Both the position numbers and the translations under genes were made by a program. Below, piece by piece: positions 5,859 to 61,658 of a stretch of DNA of 64,000 bases (the stretch's first letter is position 1; each line of letters opens with the position of its first letter). Below the pieces are notes generated by a model. That model saw nothing but the letters and a program-made list of their open reading frames with translations, was not told the origin of the DNA and did not search any database. Source of the DNA: Desulfospira joergensenii DSM 10085 (GTDB taxonomy: Bacteria; Desulfobacterota; Desulfobacteria; Desulfobacterales; Desulfobacteraceae); assembly GCF_000420085.1 (NCBI RefSeq), contig NZ_ATUG01000002.1:1922001-1986000 (forward strand), given 5' to 3'.

Positions 5859-6332
5859 TTAGCTGTCCTGTTCAAGGGTAAACCTGAAGTCACAATATGG
5901 AGCCCCCTCCATGAGGGTCTGATGCCTTTCAAACCGGATGTCGGCATTAAATCCCTCTGCAAAGGGTTTGTCTCTACAGCAGGAAAGGCAGGTCCCGAAT
6001 TCTTCCATCCCCAGCTCCCGGTAGCGTTCCGCATACATGCACCGGGTCACGTTAAAGACATAGGAGGTTTCGGTCAGCTCAATGATCTCCTCTTCCAGGG
6101 CGCCTCCCTCTGCCCAGCTGGAGACGATTTCAGCCAGATCCGCCATGGTGTTGCTCCCCCTTTCCTTTGCACAGGTTTCCCCATAGCTCCTGCTCATCTT
6201 CTCATGGGTCTGCTGAACCACTGCTTTGGCAGAATCGAGTCCTATTTTTTCACCAAACGCCTTGATCACCGGAACCAGGGCAGACGCTTCGATAACCCTT
6301 TGCTCGATCAGATTGACTCTATCTATTCTCAT
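5859..6332 (-). CDS. L-2-amino-thiazoline-4-carboxylic acid hydrolase family protein
   Basis: A 157-residue protein resembling the ATC-hydrolase family. The N-terminal half is helical, and the C-terminal half holds the Cys-rich segment FGTCLSCCRDKPFAEGF and the segment EGAPYCDFRF that are typical of this family. The founding enzyme opens the thiazoline ring to give a cysteine derivative. Many members in anaerobes have unknown substrates, so the reaction here is only a family-level guess. It follows the M19 dipeptidase gene on the same strand after 55 bp and has AAAGGA before its start, so the two are probably co-transcribed. Confidence 0.7.
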   Translation of the reverse strand: MRIDRVNLIEQRVIEASALVPVIKAFGEKIGLDSAKAVVQQTHEKMSRSYGETCAKERGSNTMADLAEIVSSWAEGGALEEEIIELTETSYVFNVTRCMYAERYRELGMEEFGTCLSCCRDKPFAEGFNADIRFERHQTLMEGAPYCDFRFTLEQDS

Positions 6333-6387
6333 CTTGGTTTCCTTTGTTCATTGATTTTACCGGCTGGTTTATCCATCCAAGAACCCA

Positions 6388-7377
6388 TCAGGCTTTCCAG
6401 ACCTCGGAAAAGACCCTCATGATGTTTTCTCCCATGATCTTCTTCACATCGGCTTCATTATATCCACGGTCAAGAAGGGCATGGGTGATGTTCGGAAAAT
6501 CAGCCGAAGATTCAATCCCTTTTGGATTTTTCAGGGGATGATTCAGATTCAGGGCAGGACCTTTTCGGGATTTGCCGGTGAGAATCCAGTCAAACCATTG
6601 CTTTGGCTGGTTTTCTGTGAAATCGGTCCCCACGGCAATATGATCCGGACCGATCATATCGGTCATATGGTCGATGACGTCGATGTAGTCGCTGAGAATG
6701 GAGTCGTTCCCGGCCGGGAGAAAGGGGGGAAAGATGGTCGCTCCGACCACCCCGCCTTTTTGGGCAACCGCTTTCAGTGCCTTGTCCGGCTTGTTCCGGG
6801 GATGATCACACAGACTTTTGGGATTGGCATGGGTAAAGACAATCGGTTTTTCAGAGGCTTCAATGGCTTCAAGGGTCGTCCGATGTCCCACATGGGACAG
6901 ATCAATGAGAATTCCCAACCGGTTCATCTCTTCGATCACCTCCAGCCCGAATGAGGTGAGTCCGGCATCCAGCCTTTCAAGGCAACCCTGGCCGACCAGG
7001 TTCCCTTCCATGTAAGTCAGCTGCATCACCCGGACGCCCAGGCCATGGAAGATCGACAGCAGATCAAGGTCATCTTCAATGGCAGAGGTGTTTTGAAAAC
7101 CCAGAATGATTCCGGTTCGGTCGGATTCTTTGGCCGCCTGAATGTCGGAGACTTTATGAACCGGCAGGATGAGATCCGAATACCTGTCAAAAGCCCTCTG
7201 CCACCAGGCGATGTTTTTCACGGTCCCACGAAAATTTTCCAGAATGGAACAGGTGCAGTTCACGGCGGTCAGACCCCCGAGGCGCATATTTTTAAAAACG
7301 CTTTCACTCCAGCGGCTGATTTCCAGACAATCGATCACAAGGGCTTCCCCGTGAAGCGCTTTGGCTTTTTGATCCAC
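6388..7377 (-). CDS. membrane dipeptidase (peptidase M19) family protein
   Basis: A 329-residue TIM-barrel zinc hydrolase of the renal dipeptidase family. It has the segments LVIDCLE near the N-terminus, GFQNTSAIEDDLDLLSIFHGLGVRVMQLTY (written in part), DLSHVGHRTTLEAIEASEKP and FTHANPKSLCDHPRNKPD, which carry the metal ligands of the family. The canonical HxD near the N-terminus is not obvious (DCLEISRW), as in several M19 subfamilies. Start is GTG at 7377 with AAAGGAG upstream. It is the first gene of a probable two-gene operon with the ATC-hydrolase-like gene, which suggests processing of a cyclic amino-acid or dipeptide compound; that is inference. Confidence 0.85.
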   Translation of the reverse strand: MDQKAKALHGEALVIDCLEISRWSESVFKNMRLGGLTAVNCTCSILENFRGTVKNIAWWQRAFDRYSDLILPVHKVSDIQAAKESDRTGIILGFQNTSAIEDDLDLLSIFHGLGVRVMQLTYMEGNLVGQGCLERLDAGLTSFGLEVIEEMNRLGILIDLSHVGHRTTLEAIEASEKPIVFTHANPKSLCDHPRNKPDKALKAVAQKGGVVGATIFPPFLPAGNDSILSDYIDVIDHMTDMIGPDHIAVGTDFTENQPKQWFDWILTGKSRKGPALNLNHPLKNPKGIESSADFPNITHALLDRGYNEADVKKIMGENIMRVFSEVWKA

Positions 7378-7446
7378 TTTGAATGACTCCTTTAATTTGA
7401 CCCGGTTATCCCCCGGTTCCGGGCCGGTTGGCAGCGCAATCTTTCC

Positions 7447-7470
7447 TTTTTACCCAATAACGGGTAAAAA
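7447..7470. promoter_or_regulatory. perfect inverted repeat in divergent promoter region (candidate operator)
   Basis: Arms TTTTTACCC and GGGTAAAAA, 9 bp each, with a 6-bp centre, between the divergent dipeptidase gene (start 7377) and nitroreductase gene (start 7590). The position and symmetry suit a dimeric repressor. As an RNA it could also act as a weak bidirectional terminator, but there is no gene end nearby. Confidence 0.4.
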
Positions 7471-7589
7471 AAATAGAAAAATTTGAAGTTGGCCTTTATT
7501 CCTGTTTTTGAAGCCGGGGCCCTTGAATCTTTGGGCTTCAACGGTTAAAACCGGATAAAAGATAGAAAATTACAAAACGGAGGAAAAAT

Positions 7590-8414
7590 ATGAGCCTGTT
7601 CAAGATCGACCTGGATAGATGTGATAAAGACGGGATCTGTGCCATTGAATGCCCGGCCCATATCATTCGAATGGGCCCGGAAGGGCCGGTTCCCGTTGCC
7701 GGGGCCGAGGAGGCCTGTATCCGGTGCGGCCATTGCGTGGCTGTCTGCCCTAAAGGGGCTTTTTGCCTGGACTTTCTTTCCCCGGACCAGTGCATGCCCC
7801 TTGAAAAGGAGTGGGTCCTTGGTGAGGAACGGGTCGAGCATTTTTTACGGTCCCGCAGGTCCATCCGGCGGTACAAGGATAAATCCGTACCCCGGAACAT
7901 CTTTGAGAAAGCCCTGGGTATTGCCTGCTGCGCCCCCACAGGGAGCAACCGGCAGCCGGTGAAATGGCTTGTAGTGGATAAAAAAGAGGATGTGGCAAAG
8001 ATCGCGGGTCAGGTCATCGACTGGATGCGGTACATGGTAAAGGAAATGCCCGAAGTCGCCCGTACCCTGAATATGGAAATCCTGGTGGCCCAATGGGATA
8101 AGGGGATCGACAGGATATGCCGGGATGCCCCTTTTATGGTGTTTGCCCATGCGGCCAGTGAAATCGGCAGTGCCGGTGCGGACTGCCATACGGCCCTGGC
8201 CTACCTGGAACTGGCCCTGACCGGTTTCGGCCTGGGAAGCTGCTGGGCCGGATATGTAAACTATGCGGCCGGTCATTGGCCGGATCTGAAAAAGACATTA
8301 AATCTGCCCAGGGATCATTCCTGCCACGGGGCACTCATGGTGGGGTATCCAAAGTTCAGATATGAGCGGGCCCCCAAAAGGAATCCGCCAGATATCCATT
8401 ATCTTGGGAGATAA
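7590..8414 (+). CDS. nitroreductase family protein with N-terminal 2x[4Fe-4S] ferredoxin domain
   Basis: A 274-residue fusion. Residues 1-60 form a bacterial ferredoxin domain whose second cluster is canonical (CIRCGHCVAVCP); the first is shorter (CDKDGICAIECP). Residues 85-270 form an FMN-binding nitroreductase domain (RRSIRRYKDKSVP, then CCAPTGSNRQPVKWLVV and the C-terminal GYPKFRYERAP). The fusion lets reduced ferredoxin feed electrons to FMN directly instead of NAD(P)H. Natural substrates of this subfamily in anaerobes are unknown. The start has CGGAGG 7 bp upstream. It ends 5 bp from the convergent radical SAM gene. Confidence 0.9.
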   Translation: MSLFKIDLDRCDKDGICAIECPAHIIRMGPEGPVPVAGAEEACIRCGHCVAVCPKGAFCLDFLSPDQCMPLEKEWVLGEERVEHFLRSRRSIRRYKDKSVPRNIFEKALGIACCAPTGSNRQPVKWLVVDKKEDVAKIAGQVIDWMRYMVKEMPEVARTLNMEILVAQWDKGIDRICRDAPFMVFAHAASEIGSAGADCHTALAYLELALTGFGLGSCWAGYVNYAAGHWPDLKKTLNLPRDHSCHGALMVGYPKFRYERAPKRNPPDIHYLGR

Positions 8415-8419
8415 GAGGG

Positions 8420-9445
8420 TCAGACGACCTGCCGGCGGAGGTCGTGAAAGATCTCCTCAAAGGATCCATTGCTGTCCCGGATCTTTTGGGCCTGTTTTTC
8501 AACGAACCGGTATTGAAGCTCGTTTTCCATGTCTGCCAGGCGGTGGTAGTATCCCAGCCGTCTTCCCAGGATAAAATTAGTCTGCCTGTCCGGGGGAAGA
8601 CCCAGGAAATGATCCAGGACGGCCAGGAGCCGCTCTTTGTCTTGGGGCAGCTGCCCCCGGATTTCCAGGAGCAGGTCCACGGCGTGGTGGTTGGCGTAGT
8701 GGCTGTTAATGGTTTCAAGGTTTTCCAGGATCGTCCTCTGCTCGGCAATGATCTCGGCCTCGGACAGCAGACTGAATTTTCCTTCATTCATCTCCTGTTC
8801 CAGGCCGGAACCGGGCTTGATCCCGATGGTGAGCACCCGGATATGATCCGGGTTGACCCGGTTGAGGACCCGGGCGGTTTCTTGGGCGTGGTCCCGGGAG
8901 AGTTCTTTTCCCCCCAGCCCCAGGATGATGAACTGGGTGGTATGCATGCCCGCCTCCCGGGCCATTTGGGCGGTCTGGATAATCATCTCCGGGGTAATGC
9001 CCTTTTGAACCCTCTTGAGAACCCTGCCCGAGCCGGATTCCATTCCGCAGTAAAGCTTGTTGAGCCCGGCCCCGGCGATTTCCTTCATTTCCAGGGCGGA
9101 TTTTTCCGCCATGGTCCGGGCCCGGCCGTAGGAGCTGATCTGCTTCAGGGAAGGAAACGCGGTTTTTAATTCTGTAAGGATCTGGATCAAATCCCCGGTA
9201 TCCATGACAAAGCTGTCCCCGTCCTGGAGAAAACAGGTTTCAAAGGGATGACCCTTGAAGTACTCCCTGGCGGCCCGGATATCCTTTTTGATATCCTTTG
9301 GGGATCTTATGGAAAACTTCATTCCCTTGTACAGGGTGCAGAAGGTGCAGGCTGTCCAGGGGCATCCCCGGGTGGTGCGGATCAGCAGGCTGTCCGCCTC
9401 ATCCACGGGTCTGATGGGGCCGGTTTCAAAGGGCATGGATCTCAT
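8420..9445 (-). CDS. radical SAM protein (Elp3/HemN-like fold), unknown substrate
   Basis: A 341-residue radical SAM enzyme. The cluster motif is C-x4-C-x2-C (CPWTACTFC near residues 29-37), one residue longer between the first two cysteines than the classic C-x3-C-x2-C. It is followed by the segment CFLQDGDSF and by GLNKLYCGMESGSG, the SAM/ribose-binding region. No B12-binding or SPASM domain is visible. Members with this motif occur widely in anaerobic bacteria without a known reaction. No ribosome site of high quality is seen. The gene faces the nitroreductase gene and shares no operon with a neighbour. Confidence 0.85.
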   Translation of the reverse strand: MRSMPFETGPIRPVDEADSLLIRTTRGCPWTACTFCTLYKGMKFSIRSPKDIKKDIRAAREYFKGHPFETCFLQDGDSFVMDTGDLIQILTELKTAFPSLKQISSYGRARTMAEKSALEMKEIAGAGLNKLYCGMESGSGRVLKRVQKGITPEMIIQTAQMAREAGMHTTQFIILGLGGKELSRDHAQETARVLNRVNPDHIRVLTIGIKPGSGLEQEMNEGKFSLLSEAEIIAEQRTILENLETINSHYANHHAVDLLLEIRGQLPQDKERLLAVLDHFLGLPPDRQTNFILGRRLGYYHRLADMENELQYRFVEKQAQKIRDSNGSFEEIFHDLRRQVV

Positions 9446-39025: not shown

Positions 39026-39086
39026 TATCCCTTTTCTTTTCCAAGATCTTTTCCCCCTGGTTTCCGGGCAGGGGATTTTTAATTTC

Positions 39087-39243
39087 CAGGCAGGTCTTCT
39101 GACTTCCGGATCATCCTATTCACTGCACCTTCCCACCAATCTTCCAATTGGCAGTGGCATGCGGCAGCTTTTGTCCCCGGTTACAGCGGCGGGTCCGTTC
39201 CGGATTTCAACCGGATTCCCTATTCAGCCGGTTCATCGGCACC
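39087..39243 (-). ncRNA. cobalamin (B12) riboswitch
   Basis: On the minus strand the conserved blocks appear in order: GGTGCC at the 5' end, GGGAATCCGGT, ACGGACCCGCCGCTGTAA, the B12 box GCCACTG, GGGAAGG, then GGATGA, GAAGTCAGAAGACCTGCC at the 3' end. These define the AdoCbl riboswitch core. It lies upstream of cbiK with a strong terminator between, so high cobalamin should stop cbiK transcription. Confidence 0.93.
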
Positions 39244-39370
39244 TGAATAGAAAATGCTATAAAAAAACAAAAGGGAAAAAGCAAGAAAATTAAAATATTT
39301 TTTCGGATTTCCGGTGTTCATGGGATATAATGGATCAAAGGGATGGGAACCATCAGAAAGGAGGCCACGC

Positions 39371-44454: not shown

Positions 44455-45768
44455 TTAGAGCCTGCTGCAGCTTTCCGCCATGACATCGGAGATAAATTCG
44501 ATATCTTTTTCTGTTACACAGATCGGGGGATTGATGCGCAGGATATTGCCGTGAACGCCTCCCCGTCCGACGATCAGGCCGCTGTCCTTGTTCATTTCCG
44601 CCACCCGGGCCGCTTCATCGGGGGCAGGCTCTTTGGTGGTCCGGTCCTTGACAAACTCAACCCCCCGCATCAGTCCCCTGCCGCGGAAGTCCCCGATGAT
44701 ATCGTGTTTTTCTTTTAAATCGAGCATCCTCTTTTCCAGGAGATCTCCGGTTTCCCGGGCATTTTCCATGAGGCTGTCATCTTCAATGGCCCTGAGTACG
44801 GCCCGTCCGGCTGCACTGGACATGGGGTTGGATCCGTAGGTGTTGAAGAATTTTTTCTTGGACATGGCCTCGGCCACCTCCCTTTTCGCCACCACGGCGG
44901 CAATGGGATATCCGTTTCCGATACCCTTGGCCATGACCACGATGTCCGGGGTCACCCCATGGGATTCAAATCCCCACATATGGGAGCCCATCCGTCCGAA
45001 ACCGGTCTGGACCTCATCGATGATGCAGATCCCTCCGGCGGCCCGGACCCGCTCAAATGCGCCGGCAAGGTAGCCTTCGGGCAAAGGAACCACCCCGCCG
45101 TACCCCTGGACGGGTTCGGCGATGAATCCGGCGATCTCCCCCGGGGTTGAGGAGTTGATGGTCACCTCGATTTCGTTCACGTAAGGCTCCACGGTGGCCC
45201 CGTGGACGCCCCGGTACTGATCCGGGTTGTGGACATGGGTGATTCCCCCGGCAAGGGGGACGTTGTGGCGGCAGGTCTTTACCCCGGTCAGGGCCATGGC
45301 GCCAAAATGAAGGCCGTGAAAACTGTTTCTCAAAGCCAGGATTTCAAAATTGCCCGTATATAACCTGGCCATGAGAACGGCCAGGTCATTGGCCTCGGCT
45401 CCGGAGTTTACAAAATGGGCCACCCAGTCCTCGCCCGGGGGCATCTTTCCCACCAGTTCCTCTGCAAAATGGGCGGGCACGGCCTGGTAGTACATGGTCG
45501 TGCAGTGAACCATTTCATCGATCTGTTTTTTGGCTTCCTCATTCACCAGGGGGTGGTTGTGGCCCACACTGATGCAGAGATTCTGTGCCAGGCAGTCCAG
45601 GTACTGCTTGTCGTTTTCATCAAAGACGTACTGCATCTGGGCCCGTTTCAGGATCACCGGCCTGCTGAAGGCCGTAAAGGTTCCCAGAGAGGGAGACATG
45701 AACTCATGTCTCCGGTCAAGGGTGGCCTGGTAATCCCAGTCGGTTTCAATGGGTCTGTAGTTGTTCAT
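44455..45768 (-). CDS. class III PLP aminotransferase (alanine-glyoxylate/GABA-type), last gene of the Pyl operon
   Basis: A 437-residue class III aminotransferase. The PLP Lys is in VVMAKGIGNGYPIA, the Asp in CIIDEVQTGFGRMG, and the substrate/phosphate block is VNSGAEANDLAVLMA. It resembles AGXT2-like enzymes (alanine-glyoxylate, beta-alanine, dimethylarginine), a group that also contains GABA transaminases. It follows mtbB on the same strand after 110 bp that include a hairpin. AGAAAGGA precedes the ATG. Aminotransferases are not part of known methylamine pathways, so here it may process the demethylated amine left when betaines with an amino-acid skeleton are stripped, for example GABA from gamma-butyrobetaine. 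That link is speculation. Confidence 0.88.
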   Translation of the reverse strand: MNNYRPIETDWDYQATLDRRHEFMSPSLGTFTAFSRPVILKRAQMQYVFDENDKQYLDCLAQNLCISVGHNHPLVNEEAKKQIDEMVHCTTMYYQAVPAHFAEELVGKMPPGEDWVAHFVNSGAEANDLAVLMARLYTGNFEILALRNSFHGLHFGAMALTGVKTCRHNVPLAGGITHVHNPDQYRGVHGATVEPYVNEIEVTINSSTPGEIAGFIAEPVQGYGGVVPLPEGYLAGAFERVRAAGGICIIDEVQTGFGRMGSHMWGFESHGVTPDIVVMAKGIGNGYPIAAVVAKREVAEAMSKKKFFNTYGSNPMSSAAGRAVLRAIEDDSLMENARETGDLLEKRMLDLKEKHDIIGDFRGRGLMRGVEFVKDRTTKEPAPDEAARVAEMNKDSGLIVGRGGVHGNILRINPPICVTEKDIEFISDVMAESCSRL

Positions 45769-47319: not shown

Positions 47320-47691
47320 TCAGGCCCCTGCCTCCTCTTTGGAGACTGCCTCCTCCAAATGGAGGGCGGAACCGTAATGGCGGCTGAACCGCGTTGTGGA
47401 GTACTTGTCCAGTTTCCAGTCCGGGACCGCACAGGCACTGCAGGGCTTGACGAACCACTTGTTGCGCAGCGCCCTGGTTGCCCGGCTGGTTCTCGAATCT
47501 CTCACCAGAAATTCCTGGTTGCAATGGGTGGTGATCCTGGCCCGGTCTCCGGTCTGCTCAATGGCTCTGATGCCGTGAAGCACGCCCTTTCTGGACGGCC
47601 AAAGCTTCATTTTATGGAGCAGCCGGAACAGGCTGACCCGTTTTTGGTAGGTCCGTTTGACAGGGGTTCCCCTGTCAGGGCAGAGGGACAT
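47320..47691 (-). CDS. pylSn: pyrrolysyl-tRNA synthetase N-terminal subunit PylSn
   Basis: A 123-residue basic tRNA-binding protein, equivalent to the N-terminal domain of archaeal PylS and to the separate PylSn of Desulfitobacterium. Conserved: KLWPSRKGVLHGIRAI, the Arg-rich VRDSRTSRATRALRNKW and CSACAVPDWKLDK. The four zinc ligands found in archaeal PylS (His in LHG, Cys in THC, and the CSAC pair) are all present. It binds the variable arm/T-loop of tRNA-Pyl and helps the catalytic half PylSc, which is encoded 13 kb away at 60822. The ATG at 47691 follows the pylB TAG by 4 bp, with GGAG inside pylB. Confidence 0.93.
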   Translation of the reverse strand: MSLCPDRGTPVKRTYQKRVSLFRLLHKMKLWPSRKGVLHGIRAIEQTGDRARITTHCNQEFLVRDSRTSRATRALRNKWFVKPCSACAVPDWKLDKYSTTRFSRHYGSALHLEEAVSKEEAGA

Positions 47692-47695
47692 GGGC

Positions 47696-48892
47696 CTAAT
47701 TCTCCATCTGTACAAACGGTCGGTCTTCCCCTCCCGGGGCTATCTTCTCCAGATCCGGGAACAAATCCGGGGAGGAAAGATTGTCAGGCCATGGAAGGCC
47801 GCCGGCATGGCCGTTCCGGGTAGATGCCATCCAGGTCAGATAATCATTCCTGGAAGCGGGTTTAAGACTCCTGGCTTCAAGAACGGGCCCAATGGCCCGG
47901 GGTGTTCTTCTGGATCCTTCAATATCCAGGGTCTGATGGGCTACCCCGGCCAGCCCCTGTCCGGGGACCACCAGGGAGGTGACCACATTGGCACCTGCAT
48001 CGAGCCGCTGCCCCAGCCCGGCCAGTCCGTCCACATCCAGGGAGGCGGGAATGAGCCGGTCCGGCAGGACCAGCCTTAAAACCGCAATCACCATGAGTTC
48101 TCCCAGTGCGTCAGGGGAATGAAGAAGCTCCATGGGGGTTCCGGCCTGGGGCCTGAAGGTCATTACTCTTGCCTGATCCACATCGAGGGCTTGCATGGCC
48201 ATGACGGCATCCCCAACATCATCCAGGGTTTCGCCCATGCCCAGCAGGAGCCCCTCTTCAACCAGCATGCCGAGACTGCCGGCAGTTTTTTTCGCTTCCA
48301 TCCGCCGGTCAAAGGACTGGTCCAGCCTCAGGGTCGAAAAAAGTTCCCTGTTATAGGTTTCCTGGTAACAGGCATACCAGTCTGCGCCGGCGGCTGCCAG
48401 TTCTGCCAGGGTCTTTTCCGGAACTACCCCGGGAGAGATCATCAGGGGCAGGCCGGCGGCCCTTTTTATCCCTTTTGTAAGATCAACCAGGGCCTTGAAT
48501 CCGAGATCGCCCCGGTTATGAAAAAAGGCAGACTCCCCCATGGTCAGATCGATGAGGTGGACCCCGCTTGCGGCCATGGCTTCGGCCGCCTCCAGAATCT
48601 CTTCTGGACTCTTTCTGTACCGTATGAGAGATCGGTTTGATCTGCGGTATTTGCAGAACAGGCAGTCGTTTTTACATTCTGTGCTGAAATAGAGAAACCC
48701 GTAGAGAAACACCCGGTTTCCAAAGTGACGGCTGCGGATCTGTCGGGCCGTGTCAAACAGCATGGAAATGCTGTCTTCGTCGGACAGGGAGAGCAGAAAA
48801 ACGATATCCTCCCGGCCGGGTGCAGTTCCGGCCAGGGCATTGGAAAGGATCCCTTTCAATCGAAGGTTATGATCTCTGGTTTGGTGGGCCAT
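47696..48892 (-). CDS. pylB: methylornithine synthase PylB (radical SAM)
   Basis: A 398-residue radical SAM enzyme that converts L-lysine to 3-methyl-D-ornithine, the first step of pyrrolysine synthesis. The cluster motif is C-x3-C-x2-C (STECKNDCLFCKYRRSN), then LIDLTMGESAFFHNRGDLG, ACYQETYNRELFSTLR and MTFRPQAGTPMELL, all matching PylB. It is about 45 residues longer than usual, with a tail (PWPDNLSSPDLFPDLEKIAP) of no known function. AGGAG precedes the ATG. Its stop is TAG; readthrough by tRNA-Pyl would add only 7 residues before a TGA. PylC and PylD for the next steps are not encoded in the window. Confidence 0.94.
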   Translation of the reverse strand: MAHQTRDHNLRLKGILSNALAGTAPGREDIVFLLSLSDEDSISMLFDTARQIRSRHFGNRVFLYGFLYFSTECKNDCLFCKYRRSNRSLIRYRKSPEEILEAAEAMAASGVHLIDLTMGESAFFHNRGDLGFKALVDLTKGIKRAAGLPLMISPGVVPEKTLAELAAAGADWYACYQETYNRELFSTLRLDQSFDRRMEAKKTAGSLGMLVEEGLLLGMGETLDDVGDAVMAMQALDVDQARVMTFRPQAGTPMELLHSPDALGELMVIAVLRLVLPDRLIPASLDVDGLAGLGQRLDAGANVVTSLVVPGQGLAGVAHQTLDIEGSRRTPRAIGPVLEARSLKPASRNDYLTWMASTRNGHAGGLPWPDNLSSPDLFPDLEKIAPGGEDRPFVQMEN

Positions 48893-49012
48893 AATCCGGT
48901 TCTCCTGTTTTAGGCCTTCTCTGATAATCGCCTTTTGGCCTATCCCCTTTGCCTTGAACTCAAACCAAAAGTCTAATTATTAGAGATAACCTTTAATCGT
49001 AGGGGGGTGGCA

Positions 49013-49042
49013 CCTGCCCGGGACAGTCTGATCCCGGGCAGG
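49013..49042 (-). other. GC-rich hairpin between mtbC and pylB
   Basis: Perfect arms CCTGCCCGGGA / TCCCGGGCAGG with an 8-nt loop in the 242-nt gap between mtbC and pylB. No T-run follows on the minus strand. It could lower downstream expression so that pylB and pylSn are made less than the methyltransferase proteins, or protect a processed 3' end. Confidence 0.5.
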
Positions 49043-49134
49043 ACTGGCAATGGATCTTTTCTTCCTCTGGAATGGGCCCGGCAGTTGCCCCTAAGGATCT
49101 GTCCGGGCCGTCCCAGTGCAGAAATCTACAGGCC

Positions 49135-49788
49135 TCAGGAAAGCCCGAGAAGTTCTTCTGCCTTGCACACACCGTCCTGGGCATCCTCGGCATAGGCATC
49201 GGCTCCGATGCGGGTTGCCCAGCGCGGGGTGACCGGTGCGCCGCCGACCATGGTCTTGAAACGGTCCTTCAGACCTTTGCGTTTGAGCAGTTCTTCAAGA
49301 TCCTTTTGTTTGGGCATGGTAGTGGTCAGCAATGCGCTGGTGCCGATGATGTCCACATCCAGGCGCACGGCCTCTTCAAGGATCTTTTCCGTGTCGATGT
49401 CACGGCCCATGTCGTGGACGGTAAAGCCGTTGGCCTGGAAAAGTGAGGTAACGATACACTTGCCGATATCGTGGACATCCCCTTTTACCGTGGCGATGAG
49501 GATTTTGCCCTTGGCTTCTTTTTGTACCGCCTGGCTGCTGATGGTTTCATTGACAACATCGGTTACGGCTTTCATGGCATCAGCCGCCATGATCAGCTCG
49601 GGAAGGAAAAGCTGGCCCCTGCCAAAGAGTTCTCCCACCTGGTTAATGCCCGGTATGAATGCCTCGTCCATCATGGTCACAGGATCAATCCCCTTGTCCA
49701 GTATCTCGCGGGCAAGGGCAATTGCCCCGTCCTTACTGCCTTTCACCAGAGATTGTCCGGCATCGTCAATTATGGCTTGGTCCATCAT
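49135..49788 (-). CDS. mtbC: dimethylamine corrinoid protein MtbC
   Basis: A 217-residue corrinoid carrier with an N-terminal helical cap (residues 1-85) and a B12-binding domain with the His ligand motif VKGDVHDIGKC, SALLTTT and VGGAPVTPRWA. It receives the methyl group from MtbB and delivers it to the methyltetrahydrofolate enzyme. Placed 40 nt after tRNA-Pyl and upstream of pylB. AAAGGAG precedes the ATG at 49788. It differs from the MttC-like carrier (50765) and is assigned to dimethylamine by the presence of MtbB in the same operon; the exact pairing is inference. Confidence 0.88.
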   Translation of the reverse strand: MMDQAIIDDAGQSLVKGSKDGAIALAREILDKGIDPVTMMDEAFIPGINQVGELFGRGQLFLPELIMAADAMKAVTDVVNETISSQAVQKEAKGKILIATVKGDVHDIGKCIVTSLFQANGFTVHDMGRDIDTEKILEEAVRLDVDIIGTSALLTTTMPKQKDLEELLKRKGLKDRFKTMVGGAPVTPRWATRIGADAYAEDAQDGVCKAEELLGLS

Positions 49789-49828: not shown

Positions 49829-49901
49829 TGGCGGGGAGCCCGGGAGTTGCACCCGGCTGCACGGATTTAGAGTCCGCGTGATCCCATCCGATCCACCCCC
49901 C
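49829..49901 (-). tRNA. pylT: tRNA-Pyl (anticodon CUA)
   Basis: 73 nt including an encoded CCA. 7-bp acceptor stem GGGGGGU/GCUCCCC with discriminator G; only one base before a 4-bp D-stem (GAUC/GAUC); a 6-bp anticodon stem (CGCGGA/UCCGUG) with loop CUCUAAA, so the anticodon is CUA; a 3-nt variable loop (CAG); a 5-bp T-stem (CCGGG/CCCGG) with loop UGCAACU. These are the hallmarks of tRNA-Pyl and closely follow the Desulfitobacterium hafniense tRNA. It starts 14 nt after the mtgA-like stop and ends 40 nt before mtbC, in the operon direction, so it must be cut out of the operon transcript unless a promoter lies within mtgA. Confidence 0.95.
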
Positions 49902-49915
49902 GAAAAGAGAAGGCC

Positions 49916-50713
49916 TTAATTTTCAAAAAGCCCTTCCCGGAAGGCCTTGAGATAATTCATGCAGTAATCGTCTTTTCCGGCCAGAGCCTCGGCTGCAACA
50001 ATATTGGCCATCATCCTCGTGTCCAGGGGATTGATGATCAGGCCGTCAAGTCCCTTTGAAATGGCCATGACACCAAAAAGCTGGTTCAGGAACTTCCGGT
50101 TGGGCAGACCGAATGATATATTGGAAAGCCCGCACATGGTATGAACGCCCTTGAAGCGTTTGACGATCTGCTCAATAGAGTCGAGAAAACCGGTCCCAAA
50201 GTCCTTGTTCGTGGAAATCGGCTGAACAAGGGGATCAACGTAGATGTTATCGATATCGACGTTGTTCTGCACCAGGGCGTTCACCAGTTTGTCTGCAATG
50301 GTCAGCCGGTCCTCAACGGTTTCGGGCATCCCTTCATCGCTCATGCACAGGGCGACCACCTTGAAATCGGTTCCGGCCACAATGGGCAGCAGGGCATCGT
50401 ACCGATCTTTTTCCAGGGAGATGGAATTGATCATGGGGGTACCCTTGTGGGCGGACAGGGCCGCTTCAATGGCCACGGGGCTGGGGCTGTCAATGCTGCA
50501 GGGTCCGTCCACGACCTCCTGGACGTTCTCCACGAGCCATTTGATATATTCGGGTTCCTCTTCCACAAAGATGCCGGCATTGACATCGATGAAAGCAGCG
50601 CCGGCATTGTGCTGTGCTGCTGCAACCTCTTTGATATAGTCTGCATCCTGTGCGCTTAATGCCTCGCCTATTTTTTTCCGGCTGGCGTTTATCAGTTCTC
50701 CTACAACAATCAT
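49916..50713 (-). CDS. methylcorrinoid:tetrahydrofolate methyltransferase (MtgA-like)
   Basis: A 265-residue pterin-binding TIM barrel like MtgA of Desulfitobacterium, MtvA and AcsE. It starts IVVGELINASRKKIGEAL and has HNAGAAFIDVNAGIF, INSISLEKDRYDALLP and CGLSNISFGLPNRKFLN typical of the family. It would accept methyl groups from MttC/MtbC corrinoids and give methyl-THF, which enters the Wood-Ljungdahl pathway; sulfate reducers then oxidise it. This replaces the CoM methyltransferase MtbA of archaea. GGAG precedes the ATG at 50713, and pylT follows directly. Confidence 0.9.
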   Translation of the reverse strand: MIVVGELINASRKKIGEALSAQDADYIKEVAAAQHNAGAAFIDVNAGIFVEEEPEYIKWLVENVQEVVDGPCSIDSPSPVAIEAALSAHKGTPMINSISLEKDRYDALLPIVAGTDFKVVALCMSDEGMPETVEDRLTIADKLVNALVQNNVDIDNIYVDPLVQPISTNKDFGTGFLDSIEQIVKRFKGVHTMCGLSNISFGLPNRKFLNQLFGVMAISKGLDGLIINPLDTRMMANIVAAEALAGKDDYCMNYLKAFREGLFEN

Positions 50714-50764
50714 TGAATTTTCTCCATGGTGTTTGAACCCAGGCACCATCACCTGAACCTTGAT

Positions 50765-51403
50765 TTAACCTGCAGCAAACTCTTTGGCCTTCTCCACTGC
50801 GTCGGCAGCGTTGAACCCGTATCCGTCCGCCCCGATCTCCCGGGCATACTCTGCGGTTACCGGAGCGCCCCCGACCAGGATCTTTACCGTTTCACGGAGG
50901 CCGGCTTCTGTCAGGTGGTCTATGGTCTGTTTCATCTTGGGCATGGTGGTGGTGAGCAGGGCCGACATACAGACGATGCCTGCATTGTTTTCCACTGCGG
51001 CTTTTCCAAAATCAGCGGCCGTCACATTAATGCCCAGGTCGATCACTTTAAATCCGGAACCGGACAGCATCATCCCCACAAGGTTCTTGCCGATATCGTG
51101 GAGGTCCCCCTCCACGGTCCCCAGGACACAGGTCCCTGCGTTGGACTTCTCTCCTTCGGCCAGGAAAGGGGTGAGAACCTTTAGGCCTGCCTCCATGGTC
51201 TTGGCCGCCAGAAGAACCTCCGGGATAAACATCTCCCCGGTCTTCATTCTCTGCCCCACAATGTCCATGGCCGGAAGAAGGGCCTGGTCAAGGATGGTTG
51301 CTGCATTGCCTCCTGTGTCCAGGGCCATGTGAACCATTGTCTCCAGCAGGGCACCGTCTCCGGCGATTACCAACTGGGTTATCTTTTCGTTTATTTCAGC
51401 CAT
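50765..51403 (-). CDS. mttC: trimethylamine-type corrinoid protein MttC
   Basis: A 212-residue corrinoid carrier: helical cap, then the B12 domain with VEGDLHDIGKN (His ligand), SALLTTTMP and VGGAPVTAEYA. It sits 16 bp behind mttB, so it is the natural methyl acceptor for that enzyme. It shares its fold but clearly not its surface residues with the second carrier at 49135, as expected for two partners. AGGAAA precedes the ATG at 51403; the longer frame from 51457 overlaps mttB and is not used. Confidence 0.92.
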   Translation of the reverse strand: MAEINEKITQLVIAGDGALLETMVHMALDTGGNAATILDQALLPAMDIVGQRMKTGEMFIPEVLLAAKTMEAGLKVLTPFLAEGEKSNAGTCVLGTVEGDLHDIGKNLVGMMLSGSGFKVIDLGINVTAADFGKAAVENNAGIVCMSALLTTTMPKMKQTIDHLTEAGLRETVKILVGGAPVTAEYAREIGADGYGFNAADAVEKAKEFAAG

Positions 51404-51419
51404 CTTTTTTTCCTTTCTG

Positions 51420-52889
51420 TTAGGATAAACCCAACTCCTGTTCCGCTCCCCGGACAATTAACCTGAGCTCTTCAAGAGTACTCTCAGACAGCGGTTCCGG
51501 TTTGTGGGTTTTCAAAATCATCCTGGCCGTTTCCATGGCCCTGGCATACATGTCCATGCTTCCGGATGCCACCCAGTCCTCCCGCATTCTTCTGTCCATC
51601 ACTTTCGGCTGCGGATACATGCGCATATGCTTGTAGGTGTTTTCATGGGCGAGATAATCCTTAAACTGTCCCACCTCCTTGATGAGATCAACTGAAAGTG
51701 TTTCGTCGTTCACGGGTATGCCGCCTACAGCAAACTTGATCATCCTTACAAAGTCCGCATCCATTACCATCTGCCCGTAGTCAAATGTCATTCCGCTTTC
51801 GATCATTCCCGGTCCGTAAATCAGGTTGGTCCCTGCCAACGCTGCCAGAAGGCCGGTCATGGTCTTTTCATGACCACTTTGGGCATCACATAGTTTGCTG
51901 TCGCCCTAGCCACCGGCGGCCCATGTGGGCAGGCCGTAATAATTGCCGAGACGGGCAACCGCCGCATTGATCATACCGCACTCGGGCGACCCGACTGAGG
52001 CTGTACCGAATCTCAGGTCCATGGCTGTGGTGGAACTGCCATATATCATGGGGGTTCCCTTTCGGGTCAGCTGTCCCAGGCAGATCCCGGTCAGGACCTC
52101 GGCATTATGATCGACCAGGGTCCCGGCCATATTGACCGGGGTAGACCCGCCTGCCATGGCCATGGACAGGACATTGACCGGAATATTGTTTTTGGCGCCT
52201 TCCATGATGATTTCACAGGCGTCCCTGACCAGTTTCAGGGGGCTGACCGGGCAGGTGTTAAAGGACATGATCGGCCGTTCTTTCAGTGCCTCTCTTCCTC
52301 CGGCAATGACTGCCGCCATTTCGACCAGTTTCTTAACATTAAACCCGTTGATGGGGCCGATAAAGCAGTGTTTGGATGTGTTTGGAAAAAACGCCTCTGC
52401 ATTGTGAAGCGGTGCCACATCCTGGGGGACTTCGTGGGCCCCGACGGCCCGCAGGTAGACGTCGATCTCATCCAGTGCATCCACCATTTTAGCGGTATCG
52501 GCAACATCCTGTTTGTTGGTTTGTCTCAGTTCTCCGGTGTCGGGATCCACGATCTGGAGCCCTTCTCCGAAATTGGTGAATCCCACCCGCCTGTTTTCCA
52601 TGATGTAGTCGTTTTTGGGATTTCTTCCGGCAAGGAAGATCTTCGGCGGTGCCGTGCGCACGGCATCCTCAATCATATAAGGAGGCAGTTTTACGATCTT
52701 TTTCTCTTGGTCAACCTGCGCACCGTTACTGCCGAAAACCTCCAGTGCTTCTTCATCCTCTACGAACATCCCGGTCTTTTCCAGCACCTCAAGGGTGGCC
52801 AGATGGATTTCATCACATTCATCATCCGTAAAAACATTGAGGCTGAACCCGCCCATGGATGTTTTTCCAGCCAATAAGTTTCGACCCAA
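51420..52889 (-). CDS. mttB: trimethylamine methyltransferase MttB, pyrrolysine-containing (UAG at codon 328)
   Basis: One frame of 489 residues from 52889 to TAA at 51420, with a single amber at 51906-51908. Upstream it reads YGLPTWAAGG, then Pyl, then GDSKLCDAQSGHEKTMTGLL and NLIYGPGMIESGMTFDYGQ, an exact match in layout to Pyl-type MttB. Pyl at 328 corresponds to residue 334 of the archaeal enzyme. MttB demethylates trimethylamine, passing the methyl to MttC encoded 16 bp downstream. AGGAGGTG sits before the ATG, and a sigma-54 promoter about 70 bp upstream drives the whole operon. Confidence 0.95.
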
Positions 52890-52957: not shown

Positions 52958-52973
52958 TGCAAGGCATATGCCA
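52958..52973 (-). promoter_or_regulatory. sigma-54 promoter of the mttB-pylT operon
   Basis: Minus-strand TGGCATATGCCTTGCA matches the -24/-12 consensus with correct GG-N10-GC spacing. Predicted start is near 52947, about 58 nt before the mttB ATG. It is divergent from another sigma-54 promoter at 53467. Confidence 0.88.
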
Positions 52974-53311: not shown

Positions 53312-53466
53312 ACTTTTGCGGCAGTCCGGGGGGTGAAATAGAATATTATTGACGCGGTTTCATCTGGCAGAGACGGGCCTGTCTTCAATTTTCCTTGAGC
53401 AGAAGCCGGGAGTTTCCGGGCCGTAGTGCTTTCAATCCGACTCCATACATGCTTACGGATTTTCCA

Positions 53467-53482
53467 TGGCACGCACTTTGCT
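53467..53482 (+). promoter_or_regulatory. sigma-54 promoter of the MttB-paralogue gene (consensus-perfect)
   Basis: TGGCACGCACTTTGCT fits the full consensus TGGCACGNNNNTTGCW. It lies 119 bp before the ATG at 53601 and covers the alternative ATG at 53466, which is therefore not a usable start codon. Confidence 0.9.
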
Positions 53483-53600
53483 AAACCCAAACCGGGGATG
53501 CAAAAAAAAACATCTTCATCACAACAGCCCGGGGTTGTTTGTCAAAGCAGGAAAAGGCCCTTTTTCAGATGATATTGACACATTAAGGGGAGTAGATACC

Positions 53601-54860
53601 ATGGCAACGGACATCGGTAGCAGATGCAAGGAATGTTTTGGCAATTACCCGCTTTACATCCAGATACATGAAGACGCCATGCTGCTGATTGAATCCATCG
53701 GATTCAGGGTATCCCCGGCAACGGCAGGAAAAATACTGGACGCGGCAGGCCCTGCTGCAGAAGGGAAAATCACCTATACCGAACCCCTGGGAAAACTCTA
53801 TCTGTCCAGGGATGTCATAGATGAAGGCCTGGACAGGGTTCGTTCCGGCATGGCCTTCTGGCCCAAGGGCTTCGGAACCGGTGGTATGGCCGCCTATATC
53901 GTGGACAAGGGCGGCCCCCGGACGCCTGGTTTAAAAGACATGGAAAGGCTTTCCGAAATCTATGGCCGTACCGATTTTCTGACCAGCCTCCAAACCTCCT
54001 TCAACCTGTGCAATAGAATCAAAAAATCGGATTTCCAGGGCAGGGCAGACCTGGAGTGCGGTCTGATTGATATCATGATCCGGTGCAGCAGTGGAAAGCT
54101 GGTTACCCCGACCCTGCTGACTGAAAAGGCGATCCGCCACCTGGCCGGTTGGGGTGCAAAGGGGCATAAGGTCGGTGTGGCCCTCAGTATTACCTCCACT
54201 TTTCTGAGCATCAGTGATCAGATGGTCGACCCCTTTCTGTCAGCGGTCCGGCAAGGGATCCCCTTTATCATGAATTCCATGCCCATCGGCGGACTCACGG
54301 CTCCCTATTCCATGAGCTCCCTGGCCACCCTGGCACACGCCGAGGCCGTTTTCGGCCTGGTTCTTGCCCAATTGATCCATCCCGGCATCAGATGCGTCCA
54401 TGCTGCCATGCCCACGATTTCCGATTTGAGCAAAAAAGATATGCCCCTGATGTTCGGAAGCCGGTCCAACAGCCTTTTGAATATTCTTCTTGCCGAGCTC
54501 AACGCTTTTTTGGGGATCCCGGGCTGCCAAAGCGCCTGCAGCCACAGCCGGGATGTTTACGATGAGGATGCGGCCCGGGAAACCGTGGAGACTTTCAGCC
54601 TGGTTGATCGCTACGACTATCATAGCCTGAGACATCTGTTCGGGTTTTCAGCGCAGCTCAATGATTTTTCCATTGACCACCTGGAAAAACAGATTGACCT
54701 CTATCTTGATCTAAAAGAGAATCCAATTCCCGTTGAAATTCCGTCTCCGGCAGAATACGATCCCGAAGGCATGGACGCCATCCTGAGCGGGTTGGAACGG
54801 GGGGATTTTAGGAATCTGTCCCATACCCTTAAAAATATCGGGCGGTCATTCACCCTCTGA
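53601..54860 (+). CDS. MttB-family methyltransferase without pyrrolysine (betaine-type paralogue)
   Basis: A 419-residue member of the MttB superfamily. Blocks align with the Pyl MttB of the divergent operon (IHEDAMLLIESIGFRVSP with its N-terminus; IPFIMNSMPIGGLTAPYSMS; GIPGCQSACSHSRDVYDEDA), and the position of Pyl is Ser in this last block. Non-Pyl MttB homologues act on quaternary amines, for example MtgB on glycine betaine, MtpB on proline betaine and MtcB on carnitine. A nearby betaine-type ABC transporter supports such a substrate. The start at 53601 has GGGGAG 9 bp upstream, and the sigma-54 promoter excludes the longer frame. There is no adjacent own corrinoid gene, so it probably shares MttC. 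Confidence 0.85.
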   Translation: MATDIGSRCKECFGNYPLYIQIHEDAMLLIESIGFRVSPATAGKILDAAGPAAEGKITYTEPLGKLYLSRDVIDEGLDRVRSGMAFWPKGFGTGGMAAYIVDKGGPRTPGLKDMERLSEIYGRTDFLTSLQTSFNLCNRIKKSDFQGRADLECGLIDIMIRCSSGKLVTPTLLTEKAIRHLAGWGAKGHKVGVALSITSTFLSISDQMVDPFLSAVRQGIPFIMNSMPIGGLTAPYSMSSLATLAHAEAVFGLVLAQLIHPGIRCVHAAMPTISDLSKKDMPLMFGSRSNSLLNILLAELNAFLGIPGCQSACSHSRDVYDEDAARETVETFSLVDRYDYHSLRHLFGFSAQLNDFSIDHLEKQIDLYLDLKENPIPVEIPSPAEYDPEGMDAILSGLERGDFRNLSHTLKNIGRSFTL

Positions 54861-58995: not shown

Positions 58996-59169
58996 CCGGA
59001 TTTGGAGCAGGGGGGGGGGAACCGCGTATTCGTTTTCCTAACCTTTTTTACCATCAGAGGAATATTCGGGTTTGAGGATTTCTGAAAACCTGATATGAAT
59101 GATTCATAAAATGATTCTCGATTAGAGACCATGCACGGGACAGACTGAATTGGTGAAAAAGAGAGTTTG

Positions 59170-60567
59170 ATGACCAAACCCAATTATGTATGCGCAAGCC
59201 TGAGTGAGGAAGATCGCAACCGGATTTTCAAGGCCATTATGCAGCGTTCACGGGACGGCCTGTTTGTCACCGATCATACAGGCAAAGTGGTCATGATCAA
59301 TCAGGCCACGGAAGAGATGTGCGAGATCAAATCCTCCCAGGTTATTGGAAGGAATGTAAAGGATCTGGTGAGAATGGGCATGTGGAATCACGCCGTTGCC
59401 CTTCGGGTCATCAATGAAAAAAAGATCATCAGCAGAGTCCAGACCATACATAACAAGAAAAAAATCCTGACCACGGGTATCCCCATTTTTGACAGTACCG
59501 GCAGGTTGAGGTTTGTGCTGACCAATGACCGGGATGTCTCCACCCTAAGCTGCCTGTTTGAAACCCTGGAACTCCAGGAGCCCCTGGAAACGCCCCTGAG
59601 ATTCGAGCTTTCTGAATACAGCAAAGCCGCCGATGAAATGGAGGGGATTATCGTTCACAGTGCCGTCATGGCCAATGTGCTGAACAAGGCCCTGCGTACG
59701 GCCCGCTACGATATCCCCCTGGTATTTACCGGAGAGTCGGGTGTGGGAAAATCCATGATCGCCCGGCTCGTCCACCGGATATCCAGCAGGAGGGATCAAC
59801 CCTTTGTGGACCTGAACTGCGGTGCCATTGCTGAAAATCTATTGGAATCGGAATTGTTCGGCCATGAAAAAGGGGCCTTTACCGGAGCTTCACTCAAAGG
59901 GAAAAAAGGGATCGTTGAATGTGCGGACAACGGGACCCTTTTCCTGGATGAAATCGGTGAAATTCCTTTGAACCTGCAGGTGAAACTGCTCAAGTTTATC
60001 GAAAGCCGTGAAATCCGCCGGGTGGGCGGTACCTCCTCCAAAAAAATCAACGTGCGCATCATTACAGCAACCAACAGGAATCTTGAGGAGATGGTCAAGA
60101 TGCGGTCTTTCAGGGGAGACCTTTTTTTCCGCCTCAACGTTGTTCCCATTAAAATTCCTGCCTTACGGGAGCGCCGGGAGGAGATCAAACCCCTTGCCCT
60201 GATGTTTCTGAACCGTTTCAACAAAGAGTTCAACACCCGCAAGACATTGTCTAAAACAGTGCTTGAAACCCTGATCCACTATGATTTTCCCGGAAATGTA
60301 AGGGAACTGGAAAATATGGTAAAAAGACTGATTGCCATATCCGAAGGAGACCTGATCCGGGTCAAGCACCTGCCCCAGGCACTGAGGAGTGATTTTGCCG
60401 ATAAACAGGTTTTCGGCGAAGATGCCATGACCGATTACCAGCAGACCGTTGCCGCCTTTGAAAAGCAGATCATCCTGGAGGCCGTCCGCAAGCACGGAAG
60501 CCAGCGAAAGGCAGCCCAGGCACTGGGATTAAATCAGTCAACCCTGTCCCGGAAGATCAATAGATGA
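59170..60567 (+). CDS. PAS sigma-54-dependent activator (proposed regulator of the Pyl/betaine locus)
   Basis: A 465-residue activator. A PAS domain is at residues 15-125 (IMQRSRDGLFVTDHTGKVV), then the AAA+ domain with GESGVGKS, GAFTGA, TLFLDEIGEIP and FPGNVRELENM, and a Fis-type helix-turn-helix (SQRKAAQALGLNQSTLSRKI). The helix-turn-helix strongly resembles that of the abf activator, which explains why both loci have the same GATGC-N6-GCATC dyads. It sits between the betaine transporter and pylSc and most likely activates the sigma-54 promoters at 52958, 53467 and 55153 when its amine ligand binds the PAS domain. The ATG at 59170 is the best start. Confidence 0.92.
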   Translation: MTKPNYVCASLSEEDRNRIFKAIMQRSRDGLFVTDHTGKVVMINQATEEMCEIKSSQVIGRNVKDLVRMGMWNHAVALRVINEKKIISRVQTIHNKKKILTTGIPIFDSTGRLRFVLTNDRDVSTLSCLFETLELQEPLETPLRFELSEYSKAADEMEGIIVHSAVMANVLNKALRTARYDIPLVFTGESGVGKSMIARLVHRISSRRDQPFVDLNCGAIAENLLESELFGHEKGAFTGASLKGKKGIVECADNGTLFLDEIGEIPLNLQVKLLKFIESREIRRVGGTSSKKINVRIITATNRNLEEMVKMRSFRGDLFFRLNVVPIKIPALRERREEIKPLALMFLNRFNKEFNTRKTLSKTVLETLIHYDFPGNVRELENMVKRLIAISEGDLIRVKHLPQALRSDFADKQVFGEDAMTDYQQTVAAFEKQIILEAVRKHGSQRKAAQALGLNQSTLSRKINR

Positions 60568-60821: not shown

Positions 60822-61658
60822 ATGGCATGGACCCAGACCCAGGCCCGGAGGTTAAAAGAACTGGGCCTTGATCCCGAAGCTGTTGAGTGCCCGGCATCAA
60901 ATCCTTCCGAGCAGAACCACCTGTTCCAGCAGATTGAAAAGAAACAGGTCAAAAAGACAAGGGCCGCTTTGACACGGTTTCTTTCAAAGGACCGATTGAC
61001 AAGGATGGAGCGCCTGTCCCATGACTTGAGCCGGACACTGATCCACCATGGATTCTCCCGGGTAACCACCCCCGTCATTATTTCCAAATCCGCACTTGCC
61101 AGGATGACCATCACCGAATCCCATCCCCTGTTCAACCAGGTCTTCTGGATCAACGACCGGCAGTGCCTCAGGCCCATGCTGGCGCCCAATCTCTACAGTC
61201 TCATGGTTGATCTGGGCCGCCTCAAAACCCGTCCCATCCGATTCTTTGAGATCGGATCCTGTTTTCGGAAAGAATCGGACGGGGCCCGCCACAATACGGA
61301 ATTTACCATGCTGAACCTGGTGGAAATGGGAATTGAAATGGACAAACGGGAAAGTCGCTTACAGGAATTGGCCGCCATTGTTGCCGGTTCGGCAGGGCTT
61401 GAAAACTATGAATTTCAAACCGAATCCTCGGAAGTCTACGGGACGACCCTGGATCTGGTGGCCGGTCCTGACCGGATTGAAGTGGCCTCCGGGGCTGTGG
61501 GCCCCCATTCCCTGGATTCAGCCTGGGGCGTTACCGATGTCTGGGCCGGCATGGGATTCGGCCTTGAACGCTTACTCATGGCCGGGCTGGGAGAGAGAAC
61601 CATAGGGAAATGGGGGATAAACCTGGCCTATTTGAACGGGAACCGGCTCAATGTCTGA
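60822..61658 (+). CDS. pylSc: pyrrolysyl-tRNA synthetase catalytic subunit PylSc
   Basis: A 278-residue class II synthetase core that charges tRNA-Pyl with pyrrolysine, the partner of PylSn (47320). Motif 2 is FFEIGSCFRKESDGARHNTE followed by FTMLNLVEMG; motif 3 is GMGFGLERLLMAG. Pocket residues known from M. mazei PylS are kept: Ala, Leu and Tyr in LAPNLYS, Asn in MLNLV (N346), Tyr in EVYGTT (Y384), Trp in DVWAGMG (W417). Val replaces Cys348 as in bacterial PylSc. AAAGGAG lies 10 bp before the ATG. It is 13 kb from pylSn and on the other strand, an unusual separation. Confidence 0.95.
   Translation: MAWTQTQARRLKELGLDPEAVECPASNPSEQNHLFQQIEKKQVKKTRAALTRFLSKDRLTRMERLSHDLSRTLIHHGFSRVTTPVIISKSALARMTITESHPLFNQVFWINDRQCLRPMLAPNLYSLMVDLGRLKTRPIRFFEIGSCFRKESDGARHNTEFTMLNLVEMGIEMDKRESRLQELAAIVAGSAGLENYEFQTESSEVYGTTLDLVAGPDRIEVASGAVGPHSLDSAWGVTDVWAGMGFGLERLLMAGLGERTIGKWGINLAYLNGNRLNV

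Follow-up and report, generated by a model that had tools for sequence, protein, structure and literature searches.

In a cell where UAG serves as a stop codon as well as the codon for pyrrolysine, suppression has to be confined to the right time; how this is done is an open question, on which one locus of Desulfospira joergensenii, a bacterium of the sulfate-reducer type, bears. In the window, by which we mean the whole 64-kb stretch of DNA analysed here, the gene for the amber-decoding tRNA-Pyl (pylT) lies in the middle of a string of methylamine catabolic genes. Release of tRNA-Pyl from the mRNA that encodes the pyrrolysine-requiring enzymes themselves would be a simple, directly testable answer. 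The features of the window that bear on it are the following, with the strand in brackets.

52958-52973 (-): exact sigma-54 (-24/-12) consensus TGGCATATGCCTTGCA, with 68 nt between it and the start of mttB
51420-52889 (-): mttB, trimethylamine methyltransferase, with an in-frame UAG (pyrrolysine) at 51908-51906; TIGR02369, 754 bits, above cut-off; UAG read-through frame; PYLIS_3 match
50765-51457 (-): corrinoid protein gene (mttC/mtgC-like), likely true start ATG 51403; B12-binding Pfam domains, NCBIfam corrinoid-protein matches below the equivalog cut-offs
49916-50752 (-): mtgA-like methyltetrahydrofolate:corrinoid methyltransferase, likely true start ATG 50714; NF005719, 352.8 bits; Pterin_bind
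49932-49944 (-): terminator-like hairpin CCTTCcggGAAGG plus GCTTTTTGAA from a pattern scan, within the final codons of mtgA and ahead of pylT
49829-49901 (-): pylT, tRNA-Pyl (CUA), CCA encoded; ARAGORN, cloverleaf fold, alignment with about 60 relatives
49135-49788 (-): mtbC-like corrinoid protein; TIGR02370, 222.5 bits, above cut-off
48893-49134 (-): mtbC-pylB spacer, 242 nt, with strong hairpins (fold z = -4.0)
47696-48892 (-): second copy of pylB (methylornithine synthase); TIGR03910, 455.6 bits, above cut-off
47320-47691 (-): second copy of pylSn (small subunit of pyrrolysyl-tRNA ligase); TIGR03912, 120 bits, above cut-off
45879 to about 47276 (-): mtbB, dimethylamine methyltransferase, with an in-frame UAG at 46226-46224; TIGR02368, 473.8 bits, above cut-off; UAG frame; PYLIS_2 match
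44455-45768 (-): class III aminotransferase (Pfam Aminotran_3), 110 nt behind mtbB, of uncertain membership in the transcript
59167-60567 (+): PAS, sigma-54 activation and HTH regulator, a candidate activator of the mttB promoter; Sigma54_activat (220 bits), PAS, HTH_50
60822-61658 (+): pylSc; TIGR02367, 275.5 bits; no other gene for the large PylRS subunit scores above cut-off in this genome

The only tRNA that ARAGORN reports in the 64-kb window is a tRNA-Pyl with anticodon CTA. It folds into a full cloverleaf with a 7-bp acceptor stem, a 6-bp anticodon stem and a 3-nt variable loop, a single nucleotide separates the acceptor from the D stem, and the 3' end carries G73 followed by an intact encoded CCA. 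The CUA anticodon and the G73-CCA end are those of tRNA-Pyl, and the anticodon stem, the variable loop and the single nucleotide before the D stem match hallmarks listed in PMC8318568. Profile matches place genes for both PylRS subunits, PylSc and PylSn, in the genome. The likeliest reading of the sequence is that 49829-49901 is a working amber-decoding tRNA-Pyl gene within a methylamine catabolic operon.

The minus-strand order is mttB, corrinoid-protein gene, mtgA-like gene, pylT, mtbC, pylB, pylSn, mtbB and the aminotransferase gene. An earlier note had placed pylT 14 nt after the mtgA-like stop and 40 nt before mtbC in the same direction, and these coordinates and distances are exact: the mtgA-like gene ends at 49916, the 5' end of pylT (the expected RNase P site) is 49901, and the mtbC ATG is at 49788. 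From mttB to mtbC the gaps are, in order, -38, 12, 14 and 40 nt, all on the minus strand. PYLIS-type elements (Rfam) occur in both UAG genes of the window, mttB and mtbB, and the string combines MttB and MtbB enzymes bearing UAG at the pyrrolysine position with cognate corrinoid proteins, as a pyrrolysine-dependent methylamine methyltransferase operon should. The placement of pylT appears to be more than chance, since only about 2 of 30 ordinary tRNAs in this genome (ORF calls being approximate) follow a same-strand ORF at a distance of 30 nt or less, one of them tight on both sides, whereas both pylT copies of the genome lie close behind a same-strand catabolic gene, at 14-21 nt.

The -24/-12 consensus stands before the first gene of the string, mttB, as in a sigma-54 operon, and two exact sigma-54 matches are present in the 64-kb window against 0.06 expected, a number reached in 0 of 100 shuffles. 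The other exact match, at 53467-53482 (+), faces the opposite way and overlaps the predicted start of an mttB-like ORF (53466-54860), the true start of which is therefore probably further downstream. Inside the window operon no sigma-54 site with one mismatch or fewer was found. The activator gene at 59167-60567 directly precedes pylSc, and it may serve the mttB promoter with methylamines as the signal. The earlier note had also described pylT as lacking a visible promoter, which is borne out: the upstream scans yield one weak, chance-level match, TGGACA-16-TATTGT at 50025-49998, inside mtgA. Promoter-like sites number 4 in the region against 5.2 expected by chance, and no sigma-70 signal in the 150 nt before pylT rises above shuffled sequence, 13% of shuffles equalling the best score under an approximate matrix. 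Terminator-like sites number 13 against 10.4 expected, and the hairpin at the end of mtgA, not being beyond chance, was rejected as a real signal. An intrinsic terminator made of the tRNA and its T run was likewise unsupported, as too great a distance separates that run from the end of the T-arm hairpin.

Downstream of mtbC, the 242-nt structured spacer sets the limit of what can be said firmly. Beyond it lie pylB, pylSn and the second UAG gene, mtbB, which may belong to a separate transcript, and the firm claim is accordingly limited to pylT with mttB, mttC, mtgA and mtbC. The 3' part of the spacer (48908-48995) consists of a dispersed palindromic repeat of about 85 bp with some 15 other matches in the genome, which looks like a small repeat element.

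The window is not the only pylT locus of the genome. Another contig (C1) carries two features of note here.

C1:1783837-1783909 (= L003:7838-7910): second intact pylT, 21 nt behind etfA
C1:1782276-1783310: the other pylB copy

The C1 string reads mttB(UAG)-dmgdh-etfB-etfA-pylT-pylSn-pylB-pylC-pylD. Its pylT is 92% identical to the window copy, and in the alignment the six differences comprise two compensatory base-pair swaps (four positions), one G-U/A-U change and one T-loop base; judged from sequence, such paired changes are as expected if both genes are kept under selection. In all, the genome holds two pylT, two pylSn and two pylB genes, one pylSc (in the window) and one each of pylC and pylD (both on C1). 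Neither locus is a self-contained pylTSBCD cassette, the window being without pylC and pylD and the C1 locus without pylSc, so that neither is complete alone. No sigma-54 site with one mismatch or fewer was found in the C1 string, and the two pylT copies therefore probably differ in control. The interval between pylT and pylSn of this second locus (L003, about 7780-7837) contains a promoter-like TTGACA-17-AATGAT along with a long inverted repeat, AAAGGGTTTGT ... ACAAACCCTTT.

Demand for pyrrolysine was inventoried for three methylamine methyltransferase families, which is the scope of our count. UAG is present in 2 of the 18 matches in the genome to the trimethylamine methyltransferase model, 15 other MttB-family genes being without it; the single mtbB has a UAG, and a genome search for mtmB as a further UAG gene found none. 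The UAG genes found in these families are thus three (two mttB, one mtbB), and all of them lie in the two pylT-bearing strings.

A similar layout recurs in relatives. The pylT gene is present in 63 of 389 genomes of the class; its surroundings were inspected at 60 places, at 58 of which the upstream gene could be called. In 22 of these 58, pylT is embedded, by which we mean that it follows a named same-strand gene at 30 nt or less; L094 and L095, which are counted among the 22, are decayed relics. The spacing is repeatedly 5-27 nt, behind various methylamine genes, and the upstream partners are of six kinds: dmgdh, etfA, mtbB (UAG), mtgA, an mttB homologue and mtbC. Many embedded relatives are close kin, so that the 22 cases represent far fewer independent events, and the six kinds of partner are the better measure. 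A pylT directly before mtbC is also found in L057, where it follows a UAG mttB, and in L088; these come from two other families. Pooling the 22 embedded cases reveals no promoter signal before pylT (mean shuffle fraction 0.49). In about half of the relatives, pylT instead stands far from the gene upstream, or next to one on the opposite strand, and seems to lead a pyl operon, from which it follows that embedding is unnecessary for function. Relatives with embedded and with stand-alone pylT thus offer natural comparisons. The two relics (L094, about 5977-6047, and L095, about 6064-6134) each follow dmgdh at 13 nt, have no pyl genes in their vicinity and look like traces of lost pyrrolysine use. 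One further relative (L050, genome G332, about 5870-8768) has two pylT genes in a single string, separated by 2.8 kb and placed on either side of mttC-mtgA-pylB.

The pylB and pylSn copies of the two D. joergensenii loci appear to differ in origin. In trees of PylB and PylSn the window copies fall outside the organism's family clade, which holds the C1 copies, although the window rows have long branches and their exact placement is unsure. A recent duplication of the whole pyl unit was rejected, as well-supported branches part the two PylB sequences and likewise the two PylSn sequences. Probably, to go by these trees, the window pylB and pylSn (47320-48892) were acquired horizontally. The window pylT, by contrast, conforms to the type usual in the organism's family (73 nt, with 92-95% identity among the family's copies), and this family-type tRNA beside foreign-looking pylB and pylSn makes the window unit look like a mosaic.

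The explanation that we consider likely, on the evidence of gene arrangement, is that pylT is co-transcribed from the mttB promoter and released by RNase P, so that its supply would be raised together with the demand. Transcription would begin at the sigma-54 promoter before mttB, which the neighbouring PAS/sigma-54 activator would probably turn on when methylamines are present, and the transcript would span mttB(UAG)-mttC-mtgA-pylT-mtbC. Bacteria in general use RNase P to free tRNAs from mixed transcripts; here the enzyme would cleave at 49901, and 3' nucleases would trim the T-rich trailer. Each primary transcript would then yield one tRNA-Pyl besides the mttB message, and this tRNA could be reused many times. 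The second pylT would do likewise in the other mttB(UAG) string, the promoter region of which differs, and each operon that raises the demand for pyrrolysine decoding would also raise the tRNA. By its anatomy the string has what co-transcription calls for, namely a shared strand, short gaps and no separate promoter in view. The single transcript, the RNase P processing, the induction by methylamines and the adaptive reason are all matters that we infer, and adaptive coupling lies a longer inferential step away than the one from architecture to co-transcription.

The earlier note had gone as far as to claim that tRNA supply and demand rise together. The claim has partial support: the layout is consistent with a transcript shared with the UAG gene mttB, and the confinement of the UAG genes found to pylT-bearing strings together with the recurrence of the layout in relatives lends the idea support. 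It is limited in that mtbB lies beyond the spacer and may be transcribed separately, and in that the second pylT would also supply tRNA, so that the window copy adds to the supply and is not its sole determinant. The second pylT, the pylSn between pylB and mtbB, the hairpin at the end of mtgA and the mtbC-pylB spacer had all been omitted there. A stronger form of the proposal may be advanced tentatively, as a possibility to which we would not commit: each UAG-methyltransferase operon would hold its own tRNA-Pyl, one released per transcript, under different promoters (sigma-54 and another type), with two PylSn isoforms feeding one PylSc. If so, UAG would be decoded as pyrrolysine in proportion to the transcription of methylamine operons, and ordinary UAG stops would otherwise be spared.

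The main challenge to a regulatory reading comes from chance. The tRNA may be co-transcribed without regulatory purpose, pyl and methylamine genes having spread jointly by horizontal transfer and pylT having come to lie between genes by accident. Reviews attribute pyl clustering to horizontal transfer (PMC11467909, PMC5424206), which counts in favour of this account, as do the separate origin implied by the placement of the window PylB and PylSn and the strongly variable gene order among relatives. Repeated placement behind different methylamine genes, however, and an intact second pylT with compensatory changes suggest retention, and pylT itself, being of the family's own type, is unlike its foreign-looking neighbours; we regard the account as somewhat unlikely, though a serious contender. 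Were pylT instead driven by its own promoter inside mtgA, with the hairpin at the end of mtgA terminating the upstream transcript, there would be no coupling to mttB at all. Both elements exist on the right strand, the latter with its T run, but each is at chance level, and the embedded relatives as a group are without promoter signal, which leaves this arrangement improbable.

Alternatively, the tRNA might act mainly as a cutting site, RNase P parting mttB-mttC-mtgA from mtbC and so setting message levels, with tRNA supply secondary. Its intergenic position and the AT-rich, T-run trailer after CCA in the pylT-mtbC cases (the window, L057 and L088) would suit this, but an ordinary hairpin would suffice for the purpose, and pylT also occurs behind other genes and before pylSn, leaving no common pair to be split; we give the idea little credence. 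Least probable is that the genome runs two separate decoding pairs, each PylSn serving its own tRNA-Pyl with a shared PylSc in the manner of two-pair archaea. The comparison is invited by the presence of two pylT genes and of two pylSn genes that differ in lineage (about 60% identity). The tRNAs nevertheless share the D arm, variable loop, T stem, anticodon and G73, differing in one T-loop base and paired stem changes, and in the archaeal case the pairs are kept orthogonal by the discriminator base together with two catalytic subunits (PMC9071458), as opposed to the one PylSc here.

Co-transcription of pylT with the methylamine genes has partial parallels in known systems. The pylTSBCD operon of Methanosarcina and Desulfitobacterium hafniense likewise places the tRNA-Pyl gene in a string with genes for pyrrolysine biosynthesis and PylRS, but there pylT is the first gene, whereas here it lies mid-way in a catabolic string with pylC and pylD elsewhere. 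In Methanosarcina, a methylamine methyltransferase operon adjoining the pyl operon is transcribed separately (PMC2933860). Closest in logic to the window operon is the pyl cluster of Acetohalobium arabaticum, in which a UAG methyltransferase gene (an mttB homologue) is interspersed with pyl genes (PMC2933860) and pyrrolysine decoding is induced by trimethylamine (PMC11467909); that organism has one pyl cluster, whereas here pylT, pylB and pylSn are each present twice, distributed between two loci, with a sigma-54 type promoter before a UAG gene. Candidatus Methanohalarchaeum thermophilum HMET1 also has two pylT in one genome, but with two catalytic PylRS enzymes and tRNAs that differ in their discriminator bases (PMC9071458), unlike the one PylSc, two PylSn and tRNAs alike at identity positions found here. 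The pyrrolysine-using marine Deltaproteobacteria (bbl genomes) are the same kind of organism with the same metabolism, and have a UAG trimethylamine methyltransferase, pyl genes and glycine betaine methyltransferase homologues at the locus (PMC8318568); the accessible part of that article's text makes no mention of the operon position or copy number of pylT. Polycistronic pyl genes are already known; a second pylT within a demand operon appears to be new. In the searchable literature we found neither a methylamine operon described as holding a second pylT nor a genome described as combining two pylSn genes with a single pylSc, a weak form of evidence given that subscription papers lie outside that literature. 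Two pylT and two pylSn with one pylSc over two loci go beyond simple one-cassette accounts of the pyl system.

Several smaller observations concern the junctions around pylT and UAG. A run of 4-5 T residues directly after the encoded CCA, with one G between in the window, is present at the pylT-mtbC junctions of the window, L057 and L088 and is a candidate 3' processing site. At etfA-pylT junctions (L003, L047 and L062) the etfA stop is a UAG just before pylT, and the read-through frame crosses the whole tRNA. Strong UAG decoding could drive ribosomes from etfA over the pylT RNA, a possible feedback, or the arrangement may be due to chance. UAG stops are found in 20 of 39 pylB genes versus 14 of 140 other pyl genes; autoregulation through these stops was considered and rejected, as the stop mostly overlaps the pylC start (ATGC-ATAGCC, Met-x-Ile-Ala), which points to a coding overlap. 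Elsewhere in the window, a cobalamin riboswitch at 39072-39261 (-), scoring 119.8 bits, fits a corrinoid-dependent metabolism.
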